Source of the DNA: a virus
Virus record (IMG/VR): IMGVR_UViG_3300044959_000303
Location: 43,129 to 107,128 of that record
DNA length: 64,000 bases
Strand: one strand, 5' to 3'
In this document: piece after piece, positions 12,610-59,786 of the stretch
Layout of the letters: the number at the start of each line of letters is the position of its first letter
How positions within the stretch are numbered: the first letter of the stretch is position 1
Position numbers and translations under genes: made by a program
Notes under the pieces: generated by a model
What the model saw: only the letters and a program-made list of their open reading frames with translations
Told to the model about the DNA's origin: nothing
The model's database searches: none

Positions 12610-12807
12610 ATGAAAAACAAAAAGAATCTGAATGAATCTTTTTTCGATTTCAATATCGACATAAACTCGTCGAAATATTATTCGAATTTGACTTTGAGAA
12701 AAATAAACCGTTTGAGAAAAATTTCAATACTCAAAAAAGTCGAATTCAAGAAAAGAAGTAAACTTTTGAGAAAAATGTACGGCAAAGAGAGCGAAAATGC
12801 CTTATGA
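12610..12807 (+). CDS. Small basic prohead core protein, gp68-like (tentative)
   Basis: 65 residues, strongly basic, with TLRKINRLRKISILKKVEFKKRSKLLRKMYG: repeated Leu/Arg/Lys heptad-like spacing. T4-like phages encode small basic prohead core proteins directly after the portal gene, and the position and K/R/L pattern fit that role. AAAGGA precedes the ATG. The last 11 nt overlap the lipase gene. The assignment rests on synteny and composition, not on a diagnostic motif. Confidence 0.5.
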   Translation: MKNKKNLNESFFDFNIDINSSKYYSNLTLRKINRLRKISILKKVEFKKRSKLLRKMYGKESENAL

Positions 12808-13663
12808 TACACTTGAAATTTCGAACAACAACATATCGATACTCAATTATGATCTGATTTACATATGTTCTGCTTTATGTCTTCTTTCGTACAAAGAAAA
12901 GAAGAACATGGAAGAAATAGAAGAAAAATTGAAAGAATTCGACGTGAAATTGTTGAAAATAATCGATAGAAAATCTTCGGAAGCATTCATTTTCGAAAAC
13001 AAAGATTATTATTTTCTGATTTTCACCGGAACAGAACTGAATGAAATCAATGACATATTGGCAGATTTGAAATTCGATTTCGTGAAAACGAAAGAAGGAA
13101 GAATTCATCGAGGAATTTACAAATACTATTCTTTATTGTCTTTTTCGATTTTGAAATATATGTTGAAACTACTGAAAGAAAACAGAAAACCGGTTGTGAT
13201 TGGTGGTCATAGTCTGGGGGGAGCCATGGCAGTTCTTGCTGCCATCGAAATTTCGAAAATTGCAGATTGTTATGTTGTCACTTTCGGGCAACCAAAACTT
13301 GGAGATTTGAGATTTGCCGAATATTATGAACAGAAATTGAATTATATCAGAATAGTAATAGATCGGGACATGATTCCAAAATTGCCTCCTTCTCTTTTTG
13401 GTTATTGTCATTTCGGTTTCAAGATGATTCTCGACACGAGAGAAGATTTGATGAATAAACATTTTCACAACTGTGTTGTCAATCTGAAAAATGATTTTTT
13501 GAATTTGATGATGTTTTTTTTATTCAATCTGAAATATTTCATGAAAAATTTGTTTTTCGACAAATTTCTTTTTCTGAAAAATCACAAAATGTCTTCTTAT
13601 CATTATTTCATCAAAAAGATGCAAAATCTTTTTCTGGTAATAAGAAAAAGTGATCTGGAGTAA
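12797..13663 (+). CDS. Class-3 (alpha/beta-hydrolase) lipase
   Basis: 288-residue fungal-lipase-like (lipase class 3) hydrolase. The oxyanion-hole strand FTGTE is followed by IHRGIYKYY, then the nucleophile elbow GHSLGG with Ser139, the FGQPKLGD block, an acid-containing RIVIDRDMIPKLPP loop (Asp189 or Asp191) and a candidate catalytic His269 (SSYHYF). All three triad elements are therefore present. No signal peptide; a hydrophobic stretch (residues ~230-260) could favour membrane association. It overlaps the upstream head gene by 11 nt, so it is expressed with the late head operon. A phospholipase acting in lysis, virion or membrane remodelling is plausible. T4 has nothing similar at this locus. 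Confidence 0.85.
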   Translation: MPYDTLEISNNNISILNYDLIYICSALCLLSYKEKKNMEEIEEKLKEFDVKLLKIIDRKSSEAFIFENKDYYFLIFTGTELNEINDILADLKFDFVKTKEGRIHRGIYKYYSLLSFSILKYMLKLLKENRKPVVIGGHSLGGAMAVLAAIEISKIADCYVVTFGQPKLGDLRFAEYYEQKLNYIRIVIDRDMIPKLPPSLFGYCHFGFKMILDTREDLMNKHFHNCVVNLKNDFLNLMMFFLFNLKYFMKNLFFDKFLFLKNHKMSSYHYFIKKMQNLFLVIRKSDLE

Positions 13664-17047: not shown

Positions 17048-18268
17048 ATGCGAGAACTATTATCTGAATCGAAATGGAAAGCCACGAAAGAAGCACTTCT
17101 CGATGGCTTGACCGGAAACAGAAGAAAAGTTATGGACGTCTGCCTTGAAAATACAAGAAAAGATATGATTTCTCGGGCAGCTCTTTATGGTGCTGGTGTT
17201 CCTCTTATGGAAACAGCAACTGCTGGTGCAACAGCATCGGGCAATATCGCAACATTGAACAAGGTCATTCTACCAGTCATTCGACGCGTCATGCCTACGG
17301 TCATTGCCAATGAAATCATTGGTGTTCAACCAATGACCGGACCTGTTGCCCAGATTCACACACTCAGAGTTCGTTATGCCGATACCGTTCCAGCAGCTGG
17401 TGGTGGTGTAACGGCAGGTACCGAAGCTCTTGGACCATTCGACATAGCACGTTACTACTCGGGTAACGAAAATCCCGCAAGTCCAAAAGCTGCACCAACA
17501 TCTACACTTGAAGGTACACCCGGCAATCGTCTGAGCATTCAGATTCTGAAAGAAACCGTCGAAGCCAGAAGCCGTCGTCTTTCTGCTCGTTGGACTTTCG
17601 AAGCAGCACAAGATGCCATGGCACAGCAGGGTATCGACATAGAGGCTGAGATCATGGCAGCCCTTGCTCAGGAAATTACGGCAGAAATCGATCAGGAAAT
17701 TCTGACTTCGCTTCGTGCTCTTCCAACCACGGCATTGACCTATGATCAGGGTCTGGTCAGTGGTACAGCAACATTCGTTGGTGACGAACATGCTGCTTTA
17801 GCAGTTCTCATCAACAGACAGGCCAACCTGATTGCAGCCCGTACCCGTAGAGGTGCTGGTAACTGGGTAATTGTCAGCCCGACAGCTCTCACGATACTGC
17901 AGAGCGCAACAACTTCGACATTCGCACGTACAACCGAAGGTGTTTTCGAAGCACCAACAAACACCAAGTTCGTAGGTGTTTTGAACAGCAGCATGAGAGT
18001 CTATGTCGACCAATATGCTTCGGACAATACTCCAGTTCTGGTTGGTTATAAAGGTCCCGGTGAAGTAGATGCGGCTGCCTACTACTGCCCATACATTCCT
18101 CTGACAAGCAGCGGTATCGTACCAGATCCAAGAACCTTCGAGCTCGTTGTATCCTTCCTTACACGTTATGGATACATCGAACTCAAAAACACTGCATCAT
18201 CGCTCGGTAATGCAGCTGACTATCTTGGATTGATCAATATCAATACCGCAAATCTGAAGTTCTTGTAA
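17048..18268 (+). CDS. 23: Major capsid protein gp23
   Basis: 406 residues. It starts ELLSESKWKATKEALLDG, continues with NIATLNKVILPVIRRVMPT and GVQPMTGPVAQIHTLRVRY, and has the C-terminal VSFLTRYGYIEL region, all diagnostic of T4-like gp23. It is shorter than T4 gp23 (521), lacking most of an inserted domain. The N-terminal ~60 residues are probably the gp21-cleaved propeptide. Codon use is visibly less TTCGAA-biased than the neighbours, as expected for the most highly expressed gene. AAGGAG precedes the ATG, and a strong intrinsic terminator follows the stop. Confidence 0.97.
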   Translation: MRELLSESKWKATKEALLDGLTGNRRKVMDVCLENTRKDMISRAALYGAGVPLMETATAGATASGNIATLNKVILPVIRRVMPTVIANEIIGVQPMTGPVAQIHTLRVRYADTVPAAGGGVTAGTEALGPFDIARYYSGNENPASPKAAPTSTLEGTPGNRLSIQILKETVEARSRRLSARWTFEAAQDAMAQQGIDIEAEIMAALAQEITAEIDQEILTSLRALPTTALTYDQGLVSGTATFVGDEHAALAVLINRQANLIAARTRRGAGNWVIVSPTALTILQSATTSTFARTTEGVFEAPTNTKFVGVLNSSMRVYVDQYASDNTPVLVGYKGPGEVDAAAYYCPYIPLTSSGIVPDPRTFELVVSFLTRYGYIELKNTASSLGNAADYLGLININTANLKFL

Positions 18269-24655: not shown

Positions 24656-25249
24656 TCATGGTCGCACAACAGTGTTGTTCAGATTGATGTTGTTGCCAAC
24701 GGCAGTAGCATTGACTTCGATGTTGCCACGAACGACGTTGTTACGAACTTCGGCAACGGCAGTGACATTGCTTCCGACAACAGCCTGACCAAGATTTCCA
24801 AGACGATTGTTGGTTCCATTCAGATTGACATTGTTACCGACAGATGTTGCTTCCACAGTAAGTGGACCATTGAGATTGCTGTTGGTAACCAAAGAAAATG
24901 ACTGAACGTTGCTGAACAACACCGCCTGATTTACCGCATCGTTATTCAGAACTCTGACATTTTCACCAGCAAGATTGTTTCCAACAGCAGTCGAACGAAC
25001 TTCCGGGTCGGAAGTATTCGAAACATTGGCAATGACAGCTGTTGCGGTTACATTGCTGTTTTTGACCAACTGACCATTGATATCGACATTCACATTCACT
25101 TCGATGTTGTCGATCTCGTTCAAATAACGACAATCGATACTGGTGCCCGGGTGTGTCAGATCACAACTCGTGGCATGTCCAGTACTTGCAAAAGTCAGAA
25201 GACCAATTGCAGTTGCGATGGAAGCAAGATAACGAATACTGACAGTCAT
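24656..25249 (-). CDS. Secreted repeat protein, HfaD/curlin-like adhesin candidate
   Basis: 197 residues with a clear Sec signal peptide (cleavage after GHA near residue 26). Two Cys follow (SCDL, DCRY). The mature part is N/V/A/T-rich with recurring ATAVGNN-type motifs (STAVGNN, ATSVGNN, ATAVGNN) spaced through alternating-hydrophobic beta-like sequence, the sort seen in amyloid-like surface adhesins. It is the last gene of the operon that encodes a CsgG/HfaB-type pore, which suggests it is the exported substrate. Composition is less AT-rich and less TTCGAA-biased than the phage core, a sign of acquisition. A structured 5' leader (25250-25398) and AGGAGG precede it. Homology to HfaD is my inference. 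Confidence 0.55.
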   Translation of the reverse strand: MTVSIRYLASIATAIGLLTFASTGHATSCDLTHPGTSIDCRYLNEIDNIEVNVNVDINGQLVKNSNVTATAVIANVSNTSDPEVRSTAVGNNLAGENVRVLNNDAVNQAVLFSNVQSFSLVTNSNLNGPLTVEATSVGNNVNLNGTNNRLGNLGQAVVGSNVTAVAEVRNNVVRGNIEVNATAVGNNINLNNTVVRP

Positions 25250-25398
25250 GTTTTCCTCCTTTGGTTGTCAGTTCTGATTCATATTGGTAAATTGCATCAA
25301 TTTACCAATACTTCCGGAGAATCCGGCATGACTTCCCGATAACCAGAAATCGGTAGGCCCAGTTTTTGAATTGGATTGGCAGCCAATATTCGAAAAAC
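25250..25398 (-). promoter_or_regulatory. Structured leader RNA upstream of the adhesin gene
   Basis: The 149-nt gap between the pore gene and the adhesin gene can form four hairpins on the minus strand: ATTGGC/GCCAAT (25374-25386), CCGAT/ATCGG (about 25335-25353), CCGGA/TCCGG (about 25313-25326), and a 13-bp TATTGGTAAATTG/CAATTTACCAATA stem (25282-25310) 22 nt before the AGGAGG. No T-run follows the last stem, so it is not an ordinary terminator. It may be an RNA processing or stability element, an attenuator or a riboswitch; I could not fit it to a known riboswitch core. Confidence 0.5.
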
Positions 25399-26286
25399 TC
25401 ATTGCATACCAAAAATTCGTACGCGATCACTTTCAATGTTTCTGTCCACATACCTTTTGTATCCTCCCGGATACAATTCGGTATTTTCGTATCTGTTCAG
25501 ATAAATGATATCATTGTTGTTGCAATTCAACTCTATTCCATAGATATCGGCCAGCAACAACGCCACCGAAGTTTCTATCACATCTCTCACACCAACATTC
25601 AGAGGTTCCTGAACCTTGAAACCACTGTTCACATCGATGAGTACATTTCCGAAAAAGGAGAAAATACCACTTTTCACCTCTTTTCCGGTAATTCTTTTTT
25701 TCAGGGAAATTGCCTTTACGATTTCAGTGGTTCGAGTGTTGACAACTCTGAAATCTGCTGCAATTTCCATTATATATTCTCTTGTTCCACCACCGATTCC
25801 GTTGATATAGAATTCAGAGCCACCAGAAATCAGATAATTGATTTCTGTAATACCACCTGCAATATAATAATCCGAACCCAGAACCTGTCCGGGAAAAATT
25901 TTTCTATATCCCGGTTCGTCATCACCAAGAACCTTGTTGTTCGAGAGATTGAGTTCGACATCGAATACGGAACGATCGATTCTTTCCACAACTCGAACAA
26001 CATTTGTTTTTGCCAAAGCAGTCGTAACCATATGTGAAATACCGGAAGAAACCTTTTTTCCATCTACCAGAGAAATTTTACCGCTGTAATCATCTACATT
26101 TCCGACGGAAATTGTAATCACACCTTTGTTGTTTTTCAAGGAATTCAGTGCTTTCGACTCGAAACATTTCAGATAATTCTGATATTCCGTGACGTTTTGT
26201 TCTACCGGATATCTGTTCAAGGTAGTAACAGAACATCCAGACAGTAAACTTGCCAGAAAAATCGCAGAAAAAAGTTTCTTTTTCAT
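25399..26286 (-). CDS. CsgG/HfaB-family outer-membrane secretion lipoprotein
   Basis: 295-residue lipoprotein with lipobox LLSGC (Cys18). The body matches CsgG-type pores, closest in pattern to holdfast-anchor protein HfaB: VITISVGNVDDYSG, a VSSGISHMVTTALAKT helix, VVRVVERIDRSVFDVE, then GSDYYIAGGITEINY and the beta-hairpin ADFRVVNTRTTEIV, and a C-terminal QEPLNVGVRDVIETSVALLL helix. Family members form nonameric outer-membrane channels that export curlin or holdfast-anchor subunits. Neighbours are small signal-peptide proteins, the expected substrates. No CsgE/F or HfaE equivalent recognised. Phage coding of such a pore is unusual. Confidence 0.85.
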   Translation of the reverse strand: MKKKLFSAIFLASLLSGCSVTTLNRYPVEQNVTEYQNYLKCFESKALNSLKNNKGVITISVGNVDDYSGKISLVDGKKVSSGISHMVTTALAKTNVVRVVERIDRSVFDVELNLSNNKVLGDDEPGYRKIFPGQVLGSDYYIAGGITEINYLISGGSEFYINGIGGGTREYIMEIAADFRVVNTRTTEIVKAISLKKRITGKEVKSGIFSFFGNVLIDVNSGFKVQEPLNVGVRDVIETSVALLLADIYGIELNCNNNDIIYLNRYENTELYPGGYKRYVDRNIESDRVRIFGMQ

Positions 26287-26299
26287 GATATGATTTCCG

Positions 26300-26665
26300 T
26301 CAATAATTGATGCTTCCGTTCAATTCTGTTTCAATATTACTGTCTTCTATTTCTTGTGTCAAGTTGAAATTTGGATTGTTCGAAATCGTTCCGTTTCTAT
26401 TGTGAAGAGAAATATTACTGTTTGTTATGTTTCCCACAGTACCGCCGTAAATTGAAATTCCACCATGAGGAATATTGCTACCATTCGAATTTTTTTCGAA
26501 CATGTTTCCTTTTTTCATTTCAATTGCCGTGGCTTGATTGACAAGATCTTCGAGTTTTCTTTCCCGAAAATTCCAAATGTCATTCTGTCCAAATTCTGCA
26601 TGTGCAGAATAGTTGAAAATAATGATCGAAAAACCTGAAAACAATGTAATCAGATGTTTTCTCAT
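26300..26665 (-). CDS. Secreted small protein, HfaA-like candidate
   Basis: 121 residues from the ATG at 26665, which has GGAGG at 10-nt spacing; an ATG 9 nt earlier is too close to that site. Sec signal peptide ending YSAHA then EFG. The mature protein has a charged helix (NFRERKLEDLVNQATAIEM) and then an N/S/G-rich region with strand-like repeats (GISIYGGTVGNI, SNISLHNRNGTIS). Ends 14 nt before the CsgG/HfaB-like start. Size, export signal and position suggest the HfaA-type anchor subunit or a curlin-like fibre subunit, but no diagnostic motif proves it. Confidence 0.5.
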   Translation of the reverse strand: MRKHLITLFSGFSIIIFNYSAHAEFGQNDIWNFRERKLEDLVNQATAIEMKKGNMFEKNSNGSNIPHGGISIYGGTVGNITNSNISLHNRNGTISNNPNFNLTQEIEDSNIETELNGSINY

Positions 26666-26688
26666 GATTTTCATTCCTCCATTGTTTT

Positions 26689-27324
26689 TTATCTTGGTCC
26701 TACACTGCTCATATCTGGTCCGATACTGTCAGTATTTGCTCCGATACTGCCATTGTCCGGTCCAATTCCATCATTCACACCATCTTTACCGTTTTTTCCA
26801 TCCTTACCATTTTCATTGTCTTTTCCATTGTTGTCATTTCTGGAATTGTTGGAATTGTCATTATACTCGTCAGTGAAACAAAGAGTTATCTTTTTTTCTT
26901 CATCTTTTTCACAGATCTGTTGATTCATGACAATTTCTTTTTCTTTTCTTCGAATTTCGATAAACACGAATTCTTTTTCAGAACTTTTTTTGGCAATTTC
27001 GATTCTTTTTCCACTTTTGTCAAAAGAAGATATATTTTCAGAAAAATAAGTGTTTTCCAATTTCTGTCTTTCCCTTTCTTTGTTCAAAATATGACTTTTG
27101 ATGAAATTCAAGGAATAGCATTCCTGATTTGGTTCGGGTTCATCATATTCTTTCGGCCAAAGATAACATTCATCTTTCGAATTTTCGATTTTGTGTTCTG
27201 TTTCCGAAAACATGAAAATTTTTTGATTGTCTAAAAATCTTTTGGATTCGAAATTGACATGATATACATAAGAGCAAGAAGTCGAAAGAAAAGAAGCAAG
27301 AACGACAAAAGAAAATTTTTTCAT
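26689..27324 (-). CDS. Lipoprotein with DEYND module and Gly-rich collagen-like tail
   Basis: 211 residues, lipobox LSTSC (Cys17). The middle is charged. Two Cys bracket the module CEKDEEKKITLCFTDEYND, which recurs as CDDES...ICYVDEYND in the other secreted protein of the island (27576-28223). After it comes a N/G/D-rich tail with G-x-y triplets (GKDGKNGKDG) and then SIGPD/SIGAN-type repeats. First gene of the operon, about 40 nt downstream of a sigma-70-like promoter. Function unknown; a surface-displayed stalk or adhesin is plausible. Confidence 0.55.
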   Translation of the reverse strand: MKKFSFVVLASFLSTSCSYVYHVNFESKRFLDNQKIFMFSETEHKIENSKDECYLWPKEYDEPEPNQECYSLNFIKSHILNKERERQKLENTYFSENISSFDKSGKRIEIAKKSSEKEFVFIEIRRKEKEIVMNQQICEKDEEKKITLCFTDEYNDNSNNSRNDNNGKDNENGKDGKNGKDGVNDGIGPDNGSIGANTDSIGPDMSSVGPR

Positions 27325-28274: not shown

Positions 28275-29312
28275 TCATATTAAATCCAAAAAACAGACTT
28301 TGTCAACAAAATTTTTCGACCTTTTTTTCGAATTTCTTCGTATATCTTCGTTTACCATCATTCGAACAAGTTCGTCGAAAGAAACTTTTGGCGACCAACC
28401 AAGTTTTTCTTTGGCTTTCTTCGGATTGCCTCTCAGATATGGTACTTCCGCGGGACGCATATGAAGAGGATTGATTTTGACATAGGAAACATAATCTTCC
28501 CGGCGTTTTGTCAAACCGGAAAACAAAAAGGCTTTTTCCAGAAATTCACGTAAACTGTGAGACTCTCCGGTCGCAATAACGTAATCTTCCGGTGTCGATT
28601 GCTGTAACATCAACCACATTGCTTCGACAAAATCCCCCGCATATCCCCAATCTCGATAAACATCGAGATTTCCAAGTTCGATGAATTTCTGTTCTCCAGA
28701 AATTATTCTTGCAATTCCGTTTGTGATTTTTCTCGTGACAAATTCTTTTCCTCGAAGTGGAGATTCATGATTCATGAGTATTCCGGAACAGGCGAAAATA
28801 CCATAAGATTCCCTGTAGTTCACCGTTATCCAATGAGCTGCCAGCTTCGAAACTCCATATGGCGAACGGGGATGAAAAGGAGTATTTTCGTCTTGAGTCT
28901 TGTTACTGTTCAGAGAAATACCGAACATTTCCGATGTGGATGCCTGATAGAATCTGCTTTTCGGACTATTGGAAATTATCGCTTCCAGAATGTTCAATGC
29001 TCCCATGAAATTCGTTTCCAAAGTATACTTTGGATTTTCCCACGATATTCCGACAAAGGATTGTGCAGCCAGATTGTAAACTTCATTTGGTTTGATCTGT
29101 TTCATGATTTTCATGATGGAAATTTCGTCGGTAACATCACCAACAAGATATTCGATTTCGTTTGTTATACCGAAATAATCCAGATTTTCGAAATTCGGGT
29201 TACTTTTTCTTCTTACCAGACCGTAAATTCTGTAATCTTTTTCCAGAAGAAATTTCGAAAGATAAGCGCCATCCTGACCAAGAATTCCGGTAATGAAAGC
29301 TGTTCTTTTCAC
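28275..29312 (-). CDS. gmd: GDP-mannose 4,6-dehydratase
   Basis: 345-residue short-chain dehydratase that converts GDP-mannose to GDP-4-keto-6-deoxymannose, the precursor of GDP-fucose, rhamnose and perosamine for surface polysaccharides. N-terminal NADP site ITGILGQDG (residues 7-15); VYNLAAQSFVGISW; STSEMFG with the catalytic Ser/Thr and Glu; SPYGVSKLAAHW with the Tyr-Lys pair; NHESPLRG; and the C-terminal LHMRPAEVPYLRGN block. All Gmd landmarks are intact and length is normal. The start codon appears to be GTG after GGGGG. A sigma-70-like promoter lies 28 nt upstream. Phage Gmd enzymes are known in large myoviruses; here it may alter host O-antigen or capsule. Confidence 0.95.
   Translation of the reverse strand: MKRTAFITGILGQDGAYLSKFLLEKDYRIYGLVRRKSNPNFENLDYFGITNEIEYLVGDVTDEISIMKIMKQIKPNEVYNLAAQSFVGISWENPKYTLETNFMGALNILEAIISNSPKSRFYQASTSEMFGISLNSNKTQDENTPFHPRSPYGVSKLAAHWITVNYRESYGIFACSGILMNHESPLRGKEFVTRKITNGIARIISGEQKFIELGNLDVYRDWGYAGDFVEAMWLMLQQSTPEDYVIATGESHSLREFLEKAFLFSGLTKRREDYVSYVKINPLHMRPAEVPYLRGNPKKAKEKLGWSPKVSFDELVRMMVNEDIRRNSKKRSKNFVDKVCFLDLI
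28277..28306 (-). promoter_or_regulatory. Sigma-70-like promoter of the repeat-protein gene
   Basis: Minus strand TTGACA (28301-28306) followed at 16-18 bp by TTTAAT/TAATAT (28277-28284), overlapping the end of gmd. A small hairpin (TCGAATTCA/TGAATTCGA, about 28250-28271) lies in the leader. Confidence 0.6.
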
Positions 29313-35257: not shown

Positions 35258-36196
35258 ATGAAAATATTCGAAATCGCGGGTCGACGATCTTCTTTTGGAA
35301 AAAAATACGAAGAATTCATCGAAGAAATGGCGAAAAACACGAATTCGGAAATTGTGAAATTTCTTTTCGAAAATCCACTTTACAGAGCTTTGACACCGGA
35401 TGAAAACAAATGGACGAAGAATTATGGAATTCTGAGTATAAGAAAAGATCGTAAACCATTGAGTTTCTCACCGGCCATACAGAAAATTATCGATAATTAT
35501 CTGAAGAATATGGGTTTTCGGGCTTTGAGATCGAACAGCGTGTTCGTAACGAGACAGAAATCCATATCGGAGTTCTACAAATCGAATTCCAGAATTCTTG
35601 CAGTTGTTTTTCCTCCGAAAAAATTTTTTTTCACATGGAATCGAATTTCCGAAGATCTTTATGCAACTTTTTTCTACGAGGATTTCATCTTTTTCGATTT
35701 CGATGAATTGAGAAAATCGAAAAAAGAAACATTGAAAAAAATTCTGGAAATATTCACGAAAATCATTCCGGATGAATTCTATTCGAAAGAAAAAGAAGAC
35801 ATTCTGAAACTGGTCGAAAATCGCAATTGGTCGAGAGCCTTGAATCTTTTCGAAAAAATCATGAAGAAAATTTTCGATGAAAAGAGAAAAAACAAGGAAT
35901 TCATTCAAAAATTTTTTCATCTCGTGAACAATTACAAAGATTTCGATTTTGCTTCGGAAGAAGAAATGACGAGAATTTTCACCGTCGATACGAACAGTCG
36001 TCTGGCAAAAGAATTCAGAAACGAAAATTTTCAGGAAGCGGTTCGATCCCGAAAAGAAATCATGATTACAGATGATGTATATTTCTACATCGAAGAAAGT
36101 TTCTTCGTCGAACACAAAAACAGATTGTGGAAAGATCTGCAAAAGAAATATTCGTCTCTTGAAGAAAAAGAATCGAAAAAAACGAACGAAGAATGA
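35258..36196 (+). CDS. ADP-ribosyltransferase-like paralog 1
   Basis: 312 residues; one of four paralogs (others at 36209, 40249 and 55246). Shared landmarks in order: EEMAKNTNSEIVKF, then PLYRA (Arg43), RKDRKPLSFSP, FRALRSNSVFVT (near residues 88-98), a PPKKFFFTWN strand, and near the C-terminus EAVRSRKEIMITDD (Glu267) before a final F/Y-rich stretch. The spaced Arg, Ser-x-F-x-T and Glu elements resemble the R-S-E active site of mono-ADP-ribosyltransferases such as phage Alt/Mod. Here the usual SxFVTG is VFVTRQ and SGNE is SRKE, so this copy may be altered. Function is inferred. Confidence 0.5.
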   Translation: MKIFEIAGRRSSFGKKYEEFIEEMAKNTNSEIVKFLFENPLYRALTPDENKWTKNYGILSIRKDRKPLSFSPAIQKIIDNYLKNMGFRALRSNSVFVTRQKSISEFYKSNSRILAVVFPPKKFFFTWNRISEDLYATFFYEDFIFFDFDELRKSKKETLKKILEIFTKIIPDEFYSKEKEDILKLVENRNWSRALNLFEKIMKKIFDEKRKNKEFIQKFFHLVNNYKDFDFASEEEMTRIFTVDTNSRLAKEFRNENFQEAVRSRKEIMITDDVYFYIEESFFVEHKNRLWKDLQKKYSSLEEKESKKTNEE

Positions 36197-36208: not shown

Positions 36209-37222
36209 TTACGAAATATTGTAGAATTCTTTCAATTTTTCGGTGATGAATTTTCTTTTCGAAAAAAAGAACTGTTTGTCGAAATAATAGAAAATATCAT
36301 TCGTGATCATGATTTCGTTACCGGATTTGACAGCTTCTTCGAAATTTCGATCGGTAAAGGCATTGGTAACTTCGTTGTTCGGAATTTTCAGAATTTTTTC
36401 CAATGAAGATTCCGTAAAATGTTCTTCCATGATTTTCAGAAAATCACCGTAAATTTCGTCCGATACGAGAGAACTCGTGCTGAAAATCGTATCGTGAAGT
36501 TCTTTCATGATTTTTTCGAGAATTCGGGTTCTTTTTTTCGAATTTTTTTCGAGAAGAAATTTCGACAACAAATCATGTATTTTTTCCTGTTCGTCTTCCT
36601 CGTTGTCGTGTTCGTCGTATTCGTCGTATTCGTCGTATTCATCTCCAGTCAGATTTTTCATATTGTACTTTTCGATGAAATCTTCCACGACTTTGTAAGT
36701 TTCCTTCGGATACTTTGTCATTTCTTCGTATGAAATGCTCAAAACCTTTTCGATGAGATCGGACATTACAAGTTTTGGAAAGTAGAAATCTTTTATGTAA
36801 GGATTCCACGAAAAGTAAAATTTTCTGGAAGGAAAAATCACCAGAGATTTTCTCTCTTTACCGGAAGTTTTACTGAAAAATATGGTGATGAATTTTTCGT
36901 CACCGGTCGCGAAAATGCTGTTGAGTCTTCCTGCCCGAATTCCTTTGGAACTCAGAAATTCGTCGAGAATTTTCGAATAATACAATGGAGTATCGACAGG
37001 AGTGCGATTTTTTCTTATGGGTTTGATTCCGAAAAAATTTCCGAATTTGCCTTCACTGTAGGAATCTGCTCTGTACAAAGGATGTTCCAGAAGAAACATC
37101 GTAATTTTGGGATTTGTATTTTTTGCCATTTCTCGAAGAAAATTTTCGAACTCTTTTCGAAAATTCTCCGAATTGTCAATGTTTTTCTCTTTTTTCGAAG
37201 AAACAATTTCATTGATTTTCAT
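36209..37222 (-). CDS. ADP-ribosyltransferase-like paralog 2
   Basis: 337 residues. REMAKNTNPKITMFLLEHPLYR-like start (Arg within PLYRA), RKNRTPVDTPLYYSKILDEF, GRLNSIFATGDEKF (the S-x-F-x-T-G element), FPSRKFYFSWN, an acidic DEYDEYDEYDEHDNEEDE insert in the middle, and EAVKSGNEIMITND near the C-terminus (candidate catalytic Glu). It faces paralog 1 tail to tail with 12 nt between the stops. ATAAATAG box and GGAG precede the start. A degraded copy of part of this gene lies just upstream at about 37481-37640. Confidence 0.5.
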   Translation of the reverse strand: MKINEIVSSKKEKNIDNSENFRKEFENFLREMAKNTNPKITMFLLEHPLYRADSYSEGKFGNFFGIKPIRKNRTPVDTPLYYSKILDEFLSSKGIRAGRLNSIFATGDEKFITIFFSKTSGKERKSLVIFPSRKFYFSWNPYIKDFYFPKLVMSDLIEKVLSISYEEMTKYPKETYKVVEDFIEKYNMKNLTGDEYDEYDEYDEHDNEEDEQEKIHDLLSKFLLEKNSKKRTRILEKIMKELHDTIFSTSSLVSDEIYGDFLKIMEEHFTESSLEKILKIPNNEVTNAFTDRNFEEAVKSGNEIMITNDIFYYFDKQFFFSKRKFITEKLKEFYNIS

Positions 37223-40248: not shown

Positions 40249-41187
40249 TCAACGTGAAGTTTTCAGATTGTAGAATTCTCTCAGTTTTTTCTCGACAAGT
40301 TCTTTGTTGTACGAAAAGAAATCTTCTTCGAAATAATAGAAAACATCGTCTGTGATCATGATTTCGTTACCGGATTTCACCGCTTCTTCGAAATATCTGT
40401 TCTCGAAGTCTTCGGTAATTTCATTTCGCGGAATTCGAAGAATTTTACGAATCTTCTGTTCTGGAAAAATTTTCAGAATCAGTTTCATCAAACTGAAATG
40501 GAAACTGCTTTTTGTCATTCCACTTTTCGAAATCAGTTCTTTCATGATTTTCTTCGCTGTTTCGGATCTTTTCTGCAAATTCTTTTCATAGAAAATATTT
40601 TCCATGATTTCCGAAATTTCATTCTTATCCAGTTTCACCCAGTTCATGTTCATCAACAGATTGTAGAAATCCAATGATTTTTTCACAATTTCTTCGTAGG
40701 AAAAATCGACCAGTTTGTCCATCATGTCGTCTTCGACAAATTTGTCCAGATGAAAATCCACGATATGTGAATTCCATGTAAAGGAAAAATTTTTCGGAGG
40801 AAAAATTACGAACAGATTCCTTTTCGTGTCACTCGAAATATCGAGAAATTCGGAAGCAAGTTCCTTGCTTCCTGTCACGAATATGCTATTTTTTCTCAAA
40901 GCTTTCAAACCTCTGGTTCGAAGAAAATCGTCCAGTATTTCCGAATAGATTTTCGGTGTATCCAGAGGTTCACGATTTTTTCGAATTTTCTTGATTCCGA
41001 AATATTTCGAATATTCCGGATTGTGTCGATCTGCCCTGTACAATGGATGTTTCATCAGAAACAGAGTGGTATACGAATCGGTGTTCGAAGCCATTTCCCG
41101 AAGAAAAATGTGCAGAATTCTGTCGAATTCATTCGACTCGACAATTCTTTTTTCTTTTTCCGGAGAAAAAATTTCATTCATTTTCAT
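40249..41187 (-). CDS. ADP-ribosyltransferase-like paralog 3
   Basis: 312 residues, same family as the genes at 35258, 36209 and 55246: REMASNTDSYTTLFLMKHPLYR-type start (candidate catalytic Arg in PLYRA), RKNREPLDTPKIYSEILDDF, ALRKNSIFVTGSKEL (S-x-F-x-T-G), FPPKNFSFTWN, and EAVKSGNEIMITDD (candidate Glu) followed by FYYFEEDFF. No signal peptide. ATAAATAG box and GGAG at the 5' end. Adjacent to a homing endonuclease, as are the other copies, which may explain its spread. Confidence 0.5.
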   Translation of the reverse strand: MKMNEIFSPEKEKRIVESNEFDRILHIFLREMASNTDSYTTLFLMKHPLYRADRHNPEYSKYFGIKKIRKNREPLDTPKIYSEILDDFLRTRGLKALRKNSIFVTGSKELASEFLDISSDTKRNLFVIFPPKNFSFTWNSHIVDFHLDKFVEDDMMDKLVDFSYEEIVKKSLDFYNLLMNMNWVKLDKNEISEIMENIFYEKNLQKRSETAKKIMKELISKSGMTKSSFHFSLMKLILKIFPEQKIRKILRIPRNEITEDFENRYFEEAVKSGNEIMITDDVFYYFEEDFFSYNKELVEKKLREFYNLKTSR

Positions 41188-48366: not shown

Positions 48367-48996
48367 ATGAAAAAATTTCTCAAAAAAATCATACCTTTCT
48401 GGGCTGTTCCCGCTCATTGGGGGCTGGAAGGAGATTTGCTCGAAAGAGCAAAAATTCATTGGAACGAAAATGACGAATATGAAAAAAACAGGAAACTGCT
48501 CGAACTCGAATTGAAAAATTTTCCCGACAAATTGAAACTGAAATTGCTCGAACTGGATTACAATTTCGGTAAAATCGATTCGGAAACATATGAAATACAG
48601 ACGATAGAAATGAATTCTTCCTTGACGAAAGAAGAAAAAAGTCGAAAACTTCTCGAATTGAATTACAGACATGGAAAAATGAGCAAAGACGAATATGAAA
48701 AAGAAATTGCAAATATCGAAAAAAGGCCTTGGGTGAAAGTCATCGGAGAAAATCTGAATTCGAACGATTCGAATGTTTCGTTGGAAATGGAACTCGACTG
48801 GAATTCGTATTTCATAGAAGAATTGAAGAAAAGAGGCTATCGTGGAAGAAACGATACCGAAATTGTCGATCAATGGTTGCACGATCTTTTCAAGACGACT
48901 CTGCTGGAGGCAGGATATTTCGAATTCGATGAAAATTACGATGGTTCTCTGGTACATCGCAGAGTTCTCGAAAATGATATCGAAGAATACGAGTAA
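48367..48996 (+). CDS. Hypothetical charged helical protein
   Basis: 209 residues. The N-terminus FLKKIIPFWAVPAHWGLEGD is followed by long K/E/L helices with two copies of a KLLELxxxxGK(I/M)xxxxYE unit (LKLLELDYNFGKIDSETYE; RKLLELNYRHGKMSKDEYE), then a WVKVIGENL/MELDWNSYF domain and an acidic end. No catalytic motif. The stop lies in the first of five 12-bp repeats (48985-49044), which continue the same frame, so a longer acidic tail appears to have been cut off. Confidence 0.65.
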   Translation: MKKFLKKIIPFWAVPAHWGLEGDLLERAKIHWNENDEYEKNRKLLELELKNFPDKLKLKLLELDYNFGKIDSETYEIQTIEMNSSLTKEEKSRKLLELNYRHGKMSKDEYEKEIANIEKRPWVKVIGENLNSNDSNVSLEMELDWNSYFIEELKKRGYRGRNDTEIVDQWLHDLFKTTLLEAGYFEFDENYDGSLVHRRVLENDIEEYE

Positions 48997-49103: not shown

Positions 49104-50108
49104 ATGAACAAATATGATACTCTTGTTTTCGATCTGAATTCGATTTTCTACAGAAGTCGTCATGTCACGAAAGGTTCATTGGAAATGAAAACTTCCCTTG
49201 CTTTGCATGTAACCTTCAGAATCATCGAAAGACTGATTTCCGAATTTTCCTCTTCGAATACGAAAATGATTTTTGCTCTGGATGGAAAATCGTGGAGATA
49301 CGAAATTTACAAGAATTACAAACTCGACAGAAGAATTGCAAAAGCAAAGAAAAGTCACGAAGAAAGAAAAGAAGATCGAAAATTCGAAGAAGTTTTTTTC
49401 GATTTTGTGAATTTTCTCGAAAAATTCACGAATTCGATCGTTCTTCGGCACGAATTTCTGGAAGCCGACGATCTGATATCGGTTCTGTGCAGAAAATTCG
49501 ATGTTCGAAAAACGCTCATAATTACAAACGACAATGATTTCGTACAATTGATAAATGAAAACGTGAATCTCTATCTTGCACACAAAGATGTGATTCTGAC
49601 AAAAAATTTCGCATTCACATTCGACGGCAAACCGGTTCACGTTTCGATCACGAACAAGGGAAAAATAAAAATCGACAGAAACAGGGAACCGAACATTCTG
49701 AATGAAGACTGGACGGATTGGGCTCTGTTTCTGAAAATCTGCAGAGGTGATGCTTCCGATGGAATTTTTCCGATCTGTCCGGGAACGAGAACAAATTCTC
49801 TGGAAAAAGTTTTTTTCGACAGGAAAAACAAGGGTTTTCACTGGAACAATTTCATGCTTTCCACATGGACGAATTCTCGTGGAGACACTTTTCGTGTTCT
49901 CGATCGATATCGTGAAAATCAATTGTTGATAAATCTTCGGGAATTACCGAAAGAAATAGAAGAAGAAGCGAAAAAATGCATTTCGAATCGATTGAACAAG
50001 CCGAAAATAAATAATATCGGCATTCATTTTCTGAAATTTTGTGGAAAATACAATCTGATCGAAATTTCCCGAAGAGAAAATTTCTGGGCAAGAGTTTTTT
50101 CGAAATGA
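49104..50108 (+). CDS. rnh: 5'-3' exonuclease / flap endonuclease (T4 RNase H-like)
   Basis: 334 residues of the FEN/PIN superfamily: removes RNA primers and flaps during lagging-strand synthesis. Motifs in order: LVFDLNSIFYRSR (first Asp), MIFALDGKSWRYEIY, an R/K-rich arch helix, EFLEADDLISVL (Glu-Ala-Asp-Asp), IITNDNDFVQL, and RGDASDGIF (helix-hairpin region Asp residues). Length is near T4 RNase H (305). First gene of a plus-strand run ending with the c-di-GMP protein. Confidence 0.9.
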   Translation: MNKYDTLVFDLNSIFYRSRHVTKGSLEMKTSLALHVTFRIIERLISEFSSSNTKMIFALDGKSWRYEIYKNYKLDRRIAKAKKSHEERKEDRKFEEVFFDFVNFLEKFTNSIVLRHEFLEADDLISVLCRKFDVRKTLIITNDNDFVQLINENVNLYLAHKDVILTKNFAFTFDGKPVHVSITNKGKIKIDRNREPNILNEDWTDWALFLKICRGDASDGIFPICPGTRTNSLEKVFFDRKNKGFHWNNFMLSTWTNSRGDTFRVLDRYRENQLLINLRELPKEIEEEAKKCISNRLNKPKINNIGIHFLKFCGKYNLIEISRRENFWARVFSK

Positions 50109-50166: not shown

Positions 50167-50391
50167 ATGAGCATAGAAAGCCTGATTCGAAAACACAGAG
50201 AAGCTCTGAGAAAGAAACAGAAAAATATTCTTCTTTCGATGGAAGAAGCCGATATTCTGTTGAACGAACTGATTTCCCTGATGAAAAAAGTTCACGAGAA
50301 AAATTTCGACAACCCGGACAATCGGGAGAGCGAAGTCATAAGTATCGATTTCGATTCCGGATTCTTTCCGTCTTCCGAAAAGAAAAAATGA
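50167..50391 (+). CDS. Small hypothetical helical protein
   Basis: 74 residues, helical first two thirds (IESLIRKHREALRKKQKNIL, EADILLNELISLMKKVHEK), then an acidic/aromatic end SIDFDSGFFPSSEKKK. Looks like a small dimerising or partner protein. Encoded between the flap endonuclease and two further small genes on the same strand. No family recognised. Confidence 0.6.
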   Translation: MSIESLIRKHREALRKKQKNILLSMEEADILLNELISLMKKVHEKNFDNPDNRESEVISIDFDSGFFPSSEKKK

Positions 50392-50447: not shown

Positions 50448-50744
50448 ATGATTCGGCTCTTTTTGAAAAAGAACTGTGTTCACAATGTTGTTCTCATAAA
50501 TATTTTCGATAATCATGAAATCGACTATGCCATAGTATACAGTGAAAATGAAAAATGCCCATATGTTTCGATTCGAACAGATCGTGAAAATGTGGAAATA
50601 TCCGGTTTCGATGTCATTGTCAAGAGAATCGAATACATAAAGAATATTCTGGAAAAGGGTGCGGAAACAGATGAAGAAAAAACCGAAAATTCTACTATCG
50701 AAAACAGATTCGAACTATTTCGTGAAAGAAATCATTCAGTCTGA
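50448..50744 (+). CDS. Small hypothetical protein
   Basis: 98 residues, mixed alpha/beta (HNVVLINIFDNHEIDYAIVY, ISGFDVIVKRIEYIKNIL), good GGAGG site before the ATG. Its last 74 nt overlap the next gene in another frame, so its C-terminal ~25 residues (E/T/N-rich) are constrained by both. Function unknown. Confidence 0.6.
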   Translation: MIRLFLKKNCVHNVVLINIFDNHEIDYAIVYSENEKCPYVSIRTDRENVEISGFDVIVKRIEYIKNILEKGAETDEEKTENSTIENRFELFRERNHSV

Positions 50745-50934
50745 CAGAATCTATGTTGTTCTCTACGACAACAAACCGTTCAACTACAAGATATCGAACA
50801 AGCTTCTGGACAATCATGTTCCGAAATACAGGAAAACGGTATTTCCCAATCCCGGATTTGCAAAAAATCTGGCGAAAAAATTGAACAGAATGTTCCACAC
50901 GGACAAATTCACCGTAAAGGAAATTCAATTCTGA
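50671..50934 (+). CDS. Small basic hypothetical protein
   Basis: 87 residues from ATG 50671 (GAAAAGGG upstream); a GTG four codons earlier is too close to that site. Sequence KILLSKTDSNYFVKEI, RIYVVLYDNKPFNYKI, PKYRKTVFPNPGFAKNLAKK, LNRMFHTDKFTVKEIQF looks like a compact conserved phage protein, with a helix after NPG and a final strand. I do not know its function. It overlaps the upstream gene by 74 nt and ends 16 nt before the PAS-GGDEF-EAL gene. Confidence 0.65.
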   Translation: MKKKPKILLSKTDSNYFVKEIIQSDRIYVVLYDNKPFNYKISNKLLDNHVPKYRKTVFPNPGFAKNLAKKLNRMFHTDKFTVKEIQF

Positions 50935-50950: not shown

Positions 50951-52786
50951 ATGTTTCGATATTCCGGAACTCTGAAATTTCGAAACAGAAAATACGAAAT
51001 TGTCAGTTTCGATTCGAACGAATCGAACAATATTCTGAATTTTCTCGAACTTCGAAAAAATCTGCAGATTCCGATTTTCGATGCGTTGAAAAATCTTCGA
51101 CCGGATCTGTTGAAAGTTTCTTTCGGGGAAAAAAAATATCTTCTGTCGATAATTCCCTCGTCGGGTGTCTGTTGTGATATTCATGTTTTTCTTTCTCTGG
51201 AAGAATACGAATCTGGTTTTTCGACGAATTTCACAAATGAAAACAGTATTCTGAAACAGATTCTGGATCTGAACGACTACGGCATCGTGATCATACGAAA
51301 TCAGAAAGTGATTTTCATCAACAGAACAATGGAAAAAATCGGTGGTTACAGTCTGGAAGAAGTTGTCGGAAAAAATTTCATCGATTTTTTCGATGAAAAG
51401 GAAAAAAGAAAAATTCTCGAAATACACCGCAAAAGAGCATCCATGGAGAACGAAGAACCGGAAAGAACATGGAAATCGGTTCTGGTGAAGAAAAATGGCG
51501 AAAAAATGTATGTCGAATGTAATGTTGCAAGAACGATTTTCGACAATGAAGATGCAGTGATCGCAATCGTGAAAGACATGACTCATTATCGAAAATTGTT
51601 GAATGTGCATCATGAAAGATATTATTACGACGACATGACGAAGACGATGAACCGGAACAGGCTCGTTGCCGATTTTCCGAAAATTCACAGAAAATATGTC
51701 GGCATATGTGATCTGATTCGTTTCAAGTTCGTCAACGACAAATTCGGTTACATGTACGGAGACAATCTCATAAGAAAATTCGCAAATTTTCTGAAAGAAC
51801 AGAAAATTGTCGAAAAAGTCTATCGATTGGGAGGAGACGAATTTTTTCTCGTTTTTTCGAAGAACGACATTTGCGAAATTCGAAAATTTTTCGAGTTTGC
51901 AAACGAAATTTCGAAAGAAATTCGTTTTCGTCTGGTGATTGCAGAAAAAAGAAAAAGTTTTCGAACCACGATGGAAATTCTGGATTTCTGTCTGACGGAA
52001 TCGAAAGAAAAATTCGTGAATTTCGTTTTTTTCGACAAGGAAAAAGAGACGATCTTCCGAAATCGTAAAAAACTGTTTTCTGCGAAAAACGAAGAAATTC
52101 TCGATGACATTCACATTTTCTTCCAGAAGATTTTCGACAGGAATTCCAATTCGAAAGGTTTCGAAATTCTTTCCGGTTTTCGAAGTTTCTTCCTGAACAA
52201 GGAAGATGTGTTCCGGGAAATATACAAAAACGGACTGTCGATCGAATTCATGAATCGAATTCTGGAAAAGATTTCGTTGTTCGTTTCCGGAAAAAATTTG
52301 CAGAACGAAAGAATTCACATCAATATCGACCATTCTCTTCTGGGAAATCAGTTCGAAGATTTTTTTCTCCTGTTGAAAAATTACGAAAGAATTCTGAATT
52401 CGAGTCGATTGATTCTGGAAATTACGGAAGAATACAATATTCTGACAGAAAAGGAATATGTTTCCAATCTTCTGAAGCTTCGTGAAAATTCCTTTCGTCT
52501 CGCTCTGGATGACATGGGCAGAAAATACAGTTCACTCGAATATGTTCTGAATATTCCTTTCGACATGATCAAATTCGATCGAAAATTTTCCTTCGAACTG
52601 GAAAAAGAAAATTCGAAAGTCGAAAATCTCTTTTCGAAACTGGTATCGGTTCTGAAAGACGATCATATTCTCGTACTCGAAGGAATCGAAAATGAAAAGT
52701 CGTATGAAAAAGCACTGAAATACGATATCGACGAATTGCAGGGTTTCTTTCTACACAGACCGGAAAATTGCGATTTTTCCCGATAG
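50951..52786 (+). CDS. PAS-GGDEF-EAL protein (c-di-GMP turnover)
   Basis: 611 residues. Residues 1-95 unknown; PAS domain ~100-212 (YGIVIIRNQKVIFINRTME, VGKNFIDFF, KNGEKMYVEC); GGDEF domain ~215-345 with FKFVNDKFG, GD271 and an intact RLGGDEFF (294-298), though the usual DxD is DLI and no RxxD inhibitory site is seen; EAL domain ~385-611 with EIL in place of EAL (Glu405), Asn458, ITE (Glu490/493), DD 520-521, Lys541, Glu577 and Gln597, i.e. the metal and catalytic residues of c-di-GMP phosphodiesterases. It could make or degrade c-di-GMP; the retained EAL residues favour degradation. Encoded in a phage replication-side operon with small genes. Its phage-like TTCGAA-rich composition argues for long residence. 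Confidence 0.88.
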   Translation: MFRYSGTLKFRNRKYEIVSFDSNESNNILNFLELRKNLQIPIFDALKNLRPDLLKVSFGEKKYLLSIIPSSGVCCDIHVFLSLEEYESGFSTNFTNENSILKQILDLNDYGIVIIRNQKVIFINRTMEKIGGYSLEEVVGKNFIDFFDEKEKRKILEIHRKRASMENEEPERTWKSVLVKKNGEKMYVECNVARTIFDNEDAVIAIVKDMTHYRKLLNVHHERYYYDDMTKTMNRNRLVADFPKIHRKYVGICDLIRFKFVNDKFGYMYGDNLIRKFANFLKEQKIVEKVYRLGGDEFFLVFSKNDICEIRKFFEFANEISKEIRFRLVIAEKRKSFRTTMEILDFCLTESKEKFVNFVFFDKEKETIFRNRKKLFSAKNEEILDDIHIFFQKIFDRNSNSKGFEILSGFRSFFLNKEDVFREIYKNGLSIEFMNRILEKISLFVSGKNLQNERIHINIDHSLLGNQFEDFFLLLKNYERILNSSRLILEITEEYNILTEKEYVSNLLKLRENSFRLALDDMGRKYSSLEYVLNIPFDMIKFDRKFSFELEKENSKVENLFSKLVSVLKDDHILVLEGIENEKSYEKALKYDIDELQGFFLHRPENCDFSR

Positions 52787-55245: not shown

Positions 55246-56163
55246 TCAGTTTTTCATCGAGAAATATTCTTTTTTCAGAATTTTCCACAATCTGTTCCGA
55301 TTTTTTCGAAACCAGATTTCTTCGATATAGAAAAAGACATCATTCGTGATCATGATTTCATTGCCGGATTTCACTGCCTCTTCGAAATTTTCGTTCGTGA
55401 AATTTCGTAACAGAGAATTTTTTCTGTTCAGAACGATGATTTTTTTCAATTCTTCTTCCGAATCGAAATCGAATTTCCGATGATTGTCGGCAATTTCGTT
55501 GATGATTGTCATGTAATCCGTTTGAAAACGATCTTCCTGAAAATGTCTTTTCACGATTGTTTCCAACAGGTTCAGAGCTTCTTTCGTATGGCCTTTCTTC
55601 ATCAGAAGTTCGATATTTTCTTTTTCTTCGTGAAAAATTTCCGATGGAAGATGAAACATGATCGAATCTGTCAGTGCATGAACAATTTCTTTTTTCAATT
55701 TTCGAATTTCGGCAAAATTCAACAGAAAAATTCTGTGACTGTAAAGACTGGTGAAAAAATCGTGAGATACCGGATTCCATGTGAAGAAAAATTTTTTCGA
55801 AGGAAAAACGACTGCCAGAATTCTGTCGTTTTTTCGATAGTTCAATGCCGTTGTTCTTTCTCCTGTCACAAATATGCTGTTCGATCTCAATGCTCGAAAA
55901 CCGGAATTTTTCAGATAGTCGTCGATGAGTTTCTGTACGAACGGTGATGAACTCAATGGTTTACGATTCTTTTCTATACTCGAAATTCCATAATTTGTCG
56001 TCCATTCACTTCTGTTCGGAGTCAAGGCTCTGTACAATGAATTTTCGAACAGAAATTTCACAATTTCCGGATTCGTGTTTCTTGCCATTTCCCGAACAAA
56101 TTTTTCGAATTTTTCGTCGAAGAAAAAATTCTTGTCCGTGTTCGTGACTTCGATGATTTTCAT
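55246..56163 (-). CDS. ADP-ribosyltransferase-like paralog 4
   Basis: 305 residues. REMARNTNPEIVKFLFENSLYR start (candidate Arg in SLYRA), EKNRKPLSSSPFVQKLIDDY, ALRSNSIFVTGERTT (S-x-F-x-T-G), FPSKKFFFTWN, EAVKSGNEIMITND (candidate Glu) and VFFYIEEIWF near the end. Closest to paralog 1 (35258) in the first 130 residues. AATAAATA box 28 nt upstream (56191-56198). Converges on the secreted-protein gene and lies next to a frameshifted gene and a homing endonuclease. Confidence 0.5.
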   Translation of the reverse strand: MKIIEVTNTDKNFFFDEKFEKFVREMARNTNPEIVKFLFENSLYRALTPNRSEWTTNYGISSIEKNRKPLSSSPFVQKLIDDYLKNSGFRALRSNSIFVTGERTTALNYRKNDRILAVVFPSKKFFFTWNPVSHDFFTSLYSHRIFLLNFAEIRKLKKEIVHALTDSIMFHLPSEIFHEEKENIELLMKKGHTKEALNLLETIVKRHFQEDRFQTDYMTIINEIADNHRKFDFDSEEELKKIIVLNRKNSLLRNFTNENFEEAVKSGNEIMITNDVFFYIEEIWFRKNRNRLWKILKKEYFSMKN

Positions 56164-59590: not shown

Positions 59591-59709
59591 TGTCGTGAAA
59601 AAGTAAAGAAGATTTTTTTCGAAATTTTTTTTTTCGACGATATTATTTACTTTTCGAAAATTCGAAGTTCGAAAAAAAAAAAAAAAGAAGAATTCGTGAC
59701 AAAAAAAAA

Positions 59710-59786
59710 TGGCGACCCCGAGTGGGCTCGAACCACCAACCCCCGGCTTAGAAGGCCGGTGCTCTATCCGGTTGAGCTACGGGGTC
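59710..59786 (-). tRNA. tRNA-Arg (anticodon TCT)
   Basis: Minus-strand cloverleaf: acceptor GACCCCG/CGGGGTC, D arm GCTC...GAGC, anticodon stem CCGGC/GCCGG with loop CTTCTAA (anticodon TCT), T arm with TTCGAGC loop, G discriminator and encoded CCA at 59710-59712. Reads AGA, which the phage uses heavily (R codons are mostly AGA or CGA), so it would help translation in a host with other preferences. Confidence 0.95.

Follow-up and report, generated by a model that had tools for sequence, protein, structure and literature searches.

GGDEF domains synthesise and EAL domains hydrolyse cyclic di-GMP (c-di-GMP), which governs motility versus attachment. A gene that joins both domains to a PAS domain lies in the window analysed here, a stretch of 64,000 nucleotides (bases 43129-107128 of the 107,128-base IMG/VR record IMGVR_UViG_3300044959_000303), and raises the question of what a phage would do with such a protein. 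Bacteria commonly have proteins of PAS-GGDEF-EAL architecture; the present one stands out in being encoded by a jumbo myophage, at a site common with a relative and with catalytic residues selectively kept.

The initial annotation had assigned the gene to a T4-like phage, which can now be refined. The record encodes a T4-type portal, head protease, major head protein and tail sheath as well as an SbcC-like nuclease subunit, has gene blocks in common with relatives, and represents part of the genome of a jumbo T4-like myophage from the PA5oct/Phosso-related lineage. The nearest relative is a 543-kb contig (IMGVR_UViG_3300024239_000011, hereafter G001). BLAST links about 35 ORFs of the 107-kb record to this contig, many of them in the same local order and mostly with 25-59% identity. 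The major head protein (17048-18268) is 84% identical to that of G001 and 76% identical to that of the isolated 469-kb Sinorhizobium phage Phosso. Its conservation is unusual compared with the other proteins shared with G001 and may reflect odd conservation or recent exchange; endonuclease-like ORFs are found just downstream.

Domains and predicted fold

The following features were recognized in the gene and its product (P0001).

50951-52786, + strand: PAS-GGDEF-EAL protein P0001, 611 aa (intact ORF; Pfam; AlphaFold and Foldseek)
50951-51235, + strand: N-terminal ~95 aa, input region, predicted to be beta-rich at low confidence (AlphaFold of residues 1-222, pLDDT about 37-53)
51281-51583, + strand: PAS domain, residues 111-211 (PF13426, PAS_9; 8.6e-11, 43 bits)
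51623-52060, + strand: GGDEF domain, residues 225-340 by Pfam, fold to about 370 (PF00990; 4.7e-10, 40 bits)
51830-51844, + strand: GGDEF motif, residues 294-298
52103-52762, + strand: EAL domain, residues 385-604 (PF00563; 2.7e-26)

Each of the three domains scores above its curated Pfam cut-off (92.8 bits against 31.3 for EAL) and the predicted fold matches DosP and RbdA, so that profile search and structure prediction bear out the assignment that had been made from the letters alone. In the AlphaFold model the GGDEF-EAL unit (residues 220-605) has a pLDDT of mostly 85-95. The PAS part is poor in the full-length model and takes a PAS fold at mostly high pLDDT when modelled alone with PAS relatives. 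The top Foldseek matches in the PDB are DosP, RbdA (PA0861), RmcA (PA0575), MorA and LapD, and comparison of the EAL domain with single EAL domains in the PDB gave Z values of 23-26 and an rmsd of mostly 2.2-3 A. The order PAS, GGDEF, EAL with a matching fold is the architecture of RbdA and DosP.

The best match by both phmmer and Foldseek is DosP, the haem-PAS phosphodiesterase of E. coli (9CMF etc.). It has the same PAS-GGDEF-EAL architecture with a divergent GGDEF domain, although it differs from P0001 in having two PAS domains and a haem site. In the phmmer alignment H158 of P0001 falls one position away from the histidine that we take to be the axial haem ligand of DosP, and haem binding is unsupported. 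Foldseek ranks 2-4 (E about 4e-26) are occupied by RbdA, a PAS-GGDEF-EAL phosphodiesterase of P. aeruginosa (PDB 5XGB, 5XGD and 5XGE). P0001 resembles it in domain order and in keeping the GTP pocket and the EAL metal site, but is ~19% identical to it, has lost the Arg of ExLxR, has an altered loop 6 and is encoded by a phage.

Catalytic residues of the EAL domain

When P0001 was compared with 18 other GGDEF-EAL proteins, the metal and catalytic positions were found to be all kept (E405, N458, E490, D520, D521, K541, E577 and Q597). These residues, together with ITE (E490/E493) and GGDEF at 294-298, lie exactly where the initial annotation had placed them. Moreover, of the 16 conserved EAL positions that have been probed by mutagenesis in ProE (PMC7290235), P0001 keeps 14, namely E405, L407, N458, E490, E493, D520, D521, K541, D543, E577, E580, Q597, G598 and Q392, whereas of 11 further conserved positions in this domain it keeps 5 (Fisher p = 0.03). 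Two of the 16 are changed: G409 takes the place of the ExLxR Arg and K393 that of a Pro, the latter equivalent to P315 of ProE, mutation of which leaves less than 10% of the activity (PMC7290235). The main departures are found in two short segments.

52163-52177, + strand: EILSG (residues 405-409), Glu and Leu of ExLxR kept and Arg replaced by Gly409 (Arg in 18 of 18 other sequences)
52508-52534, + strand: catalytic DD with altered loop 6, DDMGRKYSS (residues 520-528; residue alignment)

The EAL motif does read EIL, as had been noted, although this is not the sign of lost activity for which it had been taken, since aligned relatives have A, V, I or S at the middle residue; the active phosphodiesterase PA0285 carries ESL (PMC10874727). 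Two bigger departures had not been mentioned. Gly409 stands in place of the substrate-contacting Arg of ExLxR, and loop 6 has changed from DDFGTGYSS to DDMGRKYSS, with DMGRK instead of DFGTG, and so does not match the consensus DDFG(T/A)GYSS. Loop 6 is required in EAL enzymes for dimerisation and for metal and substrate binding (PMC7290235). Two residues past G409 there is an arginine, R411, which might act as a substitute.

That the metal site has stayed complete along a very long branch speaks for catalysis by the EAL domain, while the changes of the Arg, of loop 6 and of the Pro warn that its activity may be weak; G409, the altered loop and K393 could even leave it as a binder only. A non-catalytic receptor for c-di-GMP or GTP, in which a degenerate EAL domain would bind c-di-GMP and signal via protein contact as in LapD and FimX, would suit the lost Arg, the altered loop 6 and the P-to-K change, and both of those receptors are among the structural matches. 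We nevertheless consider it unlikely, as all metal ligands and the catalytic Glu and Lys have been kept despite great divergence and would be needless in a pure receptor. The reading that we prefer, with a probability of roughly 55%, is that P0001 is a regulated c-di-GMP phosphodiesterase which has its PAS and GGDEF domains as regulators and acts on the c-di-GMP of the host.

Possible effects on host c-di-GMP during infection

As such a phosphodiesterase P0001 would be cytoplasmic and its EAL barrel would hydrolyse host c-di-GMP to pGpG. The GGDEF domain would mainly bind GTP and exert allosteric control in the manner of RbdA and RmcA, its own cyclase activity being slight or absent, and the PAS and N-terminal regions may sense a cue or mediate dimerisation. 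Host c-di-GMP would be lowered or shaped during infection, cells would leave the sessile, matrix-making state and c-di-GMP-dependent surface structures would change; the initial annotation had likewise proposed a reset of the attachment state of the host. Catalysis, GTP control, expression and physiological purpose are in this scheme what we infer. Neither a PilZ effector nor a c-di-GMP riboswitch was found in the phage, so that the protein probably acts on host physiology. Its purpose may be one of three: exit from the sessile state, removal of c-di-GMP-dependent receptors or removal of a c-di-GMP immune signal.

The second of these would lead to superinfection exclusion, in which c-di-GMP is lowered by the phosphodiesterase, c-di-GMP-dependent receptors vanish and competing phages fail to adsorb. 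The E. coli phosphodiesterase PdeL, by lowering c-di-GMP, protects against phage N4 (PMC8669472), and the present phage has surface-related genes for a GDP-mannose dehydratase, a CsgG-family protein and a KdsA-like protein. This analogy is however indirect and offers a purpose for the same phosphodiesterase activity instead of a separate biochemistry; we give it a rather small chance.

Whether c-di-GMP could instead be raised depends on the GGDEF domain. It keeps D254, K259, N262, D271, the GGDEF motif and K352, the GTP-contacting residues having been assigned from what is established for PleD-type cyclases. DxD reads D254-L-I256, the DLI already reported, and the second Asp is present in 16 of the 18 other proteins. 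The RxxD I-site, which is not universal among cyclases, is replaced by K285/E288, the conserved G of the SIG strand falls in a gap, the domain is shortened and its score is 40 bits against 137-166 in G001. RbdA, in contrast to P0001, has the RxxD site, and both RbdA and RmcA, in which the two domains are present, are GTP-activated phosphodiesterases with no cyclase activity in vitro (PMC10874727). The P0001 domain most resembles GTP-responsive switches of this kind. The earlier suggestion that one activity may be lost can be kept to the extent that one is probably impaired; its pointer to EIL falls away, and the impaired activity is probably the cyclase, as indicated by DLI, the lack of RxxD and the shortened domain.

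These same features make it improbable that P0001 is an active or net diguanylate cyclase (i.e. bifunctional) which would raise host c-di-GMP for attachment or for a c-di-GMP-dependent receptor or surface polymer: Ile256 stands for the second Asp, the SIG-strand G is missing, a feedback site is lacking and the score is far below those of G001. Such a cyclase would be in keeping with the intact GGDEF motif and with D254, N262, D271 and K259, with the consensus GGDEF domain and the separate PAS-GGDEF protein of G001, with the lone GGDEF protein of Bacillus phage G and with the dependence of the phage N4 receptor on host c-di-GMP (PMC8669472).

A role in counter-defence would again require a phosphodiesterase, here removing the c-di-GMP of a CBASS or TIR-STING type defence and filling the gap left by Acb1 of T4, whose substrates must contain at least one AMP (PMC9117128). 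GGDEF domains in the polyvalent proteins of mobile elements were discussed by Iyer et al. 2017, and those of phages were proposed to disturb nucleotide-based host responses (PMC5512222). Against this, PADLOC found nothing meaningful, no anti-defence neighbours were recognised and the PAS-GGDEF sensor architecture is unlike that of known anti-CBASS proteins. Moreover, hosts in which c-di-GMP serves immunity are not known to have ordinary GGDEF signalling, which also counts against this role, and it seems to us quite improbable.

If the preferred phosphodiesterase is active, it would be direct evidence of a phage editing the c-di-GMP pool of its host and not merely depending on c-di-GMP. It would tie infection to the control of motility, biofilm and receptors, and offers a simple test case for phage c-di-GMP enzymes in lifestyle switching, superinfection exclusion or immune evasion. 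The open-licence full texts searched yielded no functional work on an EAL enzyme encoded by a phage.

The cargo site and related phage proteins

The gene follows a run of phage genes on the same strand.

48367-48996, + strand: virion structural protein, synteny anchor (phrog_13349, 1.8e-36; homologue adjoins the exonuclease in G001)
49104-50108, + strand: 5'-3' exonuclease, core phage gene and synteny anchor (PF02739; orthologue in 10 of 12 records searched)
50167-50391, + strand: conserved small gene of 74 aa, same gene run (37% identical to the gene at the same place in the relative G010)
50448-50744, + strand: ORF of 98 aa, same gene run (no homologue in compared relatives)
50671-50934, + strand: core-lineage gene of 87 aa (MSRPKPK family), synteny anchor, ending 16 bp upstream of the P0001 gene (45-51% identical in six relatives)

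The order in the window is structural protein, exonuclease, small genes, 87-aa gene and PAS-GGDEF-EAL gene. That of G001 is exonuclease, small genes, metallophosphatase, MSRPKPK gene, 129-aa gene, GGDEF-EAL gene and AAA ATPase, and its MSRPKPK gene has homologues in Phosso, PA5oct, Paride and Atu_ph07. In Phosso the genes are ordered as in G001, with no annotated gene between a 130-aa gene and the AAA ATPase, which represents an 'empty site', and no GGDEF-EAL gene was found downstream of the exonuclease in six other relatives that have the latter. The search for syntenic homologues in phage sequences thus placed a GGDEF-EAL gene at the same cargo position in G001, and a gene of this type occupies one cargo position in two phages. 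The G001 gene, in a partly collinear relative, lies on the same strand after the exonuclease and the MSRPKPK gene, but its product has consensus-intact EAL and GGDEF domains (226 and 137 bits), lacks a PAS domain and is ~24% identical to P0001. A PAS-GGDEF protein is also encoded in G001, near an HNH gene common to G001 and the window. The consensus-intact GGDEF domain and this separate protein indicate that phages of this lineage are not bound to lower c-di-GMP. It is possible, although we put it forward only tentatively, that this jumbo-phage lineage has one set cargo position, following a core replication gene, for catalytically maintained c-di-GMP enzymes with which it resets the host messenger (for lifestyle, superinfection exclusion or c-di-GMP immunity), the GGDEF domain being demoted to a GTP sensor.

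The P0001 gene is native to the phage. Its GC content (0.367) and codon usage (1.293 bits per codon) fall among the values seen for other genes of the phage. A family of four phage paralogues lies on both sides of it (35258-36196, 36209-37222, 40249-41187 and 55246-56163; 32-51% identical among themselves, the 55246 copy matching phrog_11975), and a second pair (38067 and 62100) likewise brackets it. Assembly chimerism or bacterial DNA, which the initial annotation had named as a concern, can be dismissed, for although GGDEF-EAL genes are typical of bacteria and several short viral-contig matches sit in prophage flanks (e.g. L141), the gene resembles phage genes in codon usage, is bracketed by paralogues and by core phage genes, and has its counterpart at the same site in the 543-kb relative.

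With the P0001 protein as query no close relatives were found in IMG/VR, and a scan of genome contigs gave weak relatives with 24-34% identity. GGDEF-EAL genes are also present in viral contigs of 543, 208 and 158 kb, that of 208 kb encoding another PAS-GGDEF-EAL protein together with terminase and sheath homologues. P0001 has the longest end branch of 19 in the tree (7.35 changes per site), and AU tests of its grouping gave p = 0.059 with G001, p = 0.34 with the 208-kb phage and p = 0.21 for all four. A single origin for the phage GGDEF-EAL proteins was considered and not adopted, in view of these tests and of a tree that is dominated by long branches and does not group P0001 with G001. At the shared site, one old acquisition and two insertions would both be compatible with such a tree.

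That a module of this kind is very unusual in a phage, as was first claimed, is overstated in the light of these contigs and of the phage GGDEF proteins already annotated in Bacillus phage G (gp350), Bacillus phage SP-15 and Bordetella phage CN1. The product of gp350 ('GGDEF motif diguanylate cyclase') is like P0001 a c-di-GMP-type enzyme of a giant phage, but it is a lone GGDEF domain of 254 aa without EAL or PAS. Moreover the phage protein library already holds a GGDEF-EAL family, PHROG 11823 (phrog_11823), listed as of unknown function. This is the best PHROG for P0001 (6.5e-29), covers both domains to judge by its match with G001, and scores 102 bits with P0001 versus 472 bits with G001.

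Several candidates were discarded. The apparent long relative L141 is a prophage end adjoining host DNA, the 'diguanylate cyclase' of Escherichia phage vB_EcoS-683R6 is the host DgcM next to an integrase, and several other 'phage' matches are evidently bacterial records. Further GGDEF or GGDEF-EAL proteins were seen in viral contigs of 158, 178 and 224 kb (L152, L156 and L166), and terminase and sheath searches of these three did not confirm their phage status. A further relative, a 523-kb phage (G009), encodes a protein with several PAS domains and without GGDEF or EAL (L095, 8721-10055).

Elsewhere in the phage, a marginal Rfam match to HPnc0260 (59602-59748, + strand; 60.4 bits versus a cut-off of 59) lies antisense to a tRNA-Arg (59710-59786), and a class-3 lipase (12797-13663, + strand; PF01764, 2.6e-26) with a homologue in G001 is encoded between the portal and head genes. 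A Kdo-8-phosphate synthase (KdsA)-like protein, judged by eye from its sequence, is encoded on the same contig upstream of the window (L002, 15308-16141, - strand) and a KdsD-like protein in G001 (L093, 12368-13420); the two suggest a Gram-negative host. A GDP-mannose 4,6-dehydratase (28275-29312, - strand; 413 bits) has counterparts of about 50% identity in cyanophages and archaeal viruses. The CsgG-family outer-membrane secretion protein (25399-26286; PF03783, 8e-19; phrog_20175) forms with small, apparently secreted companions a curli- or holdfast-like cluster (24656-27324, - strand), which is possibly tied to attachment.
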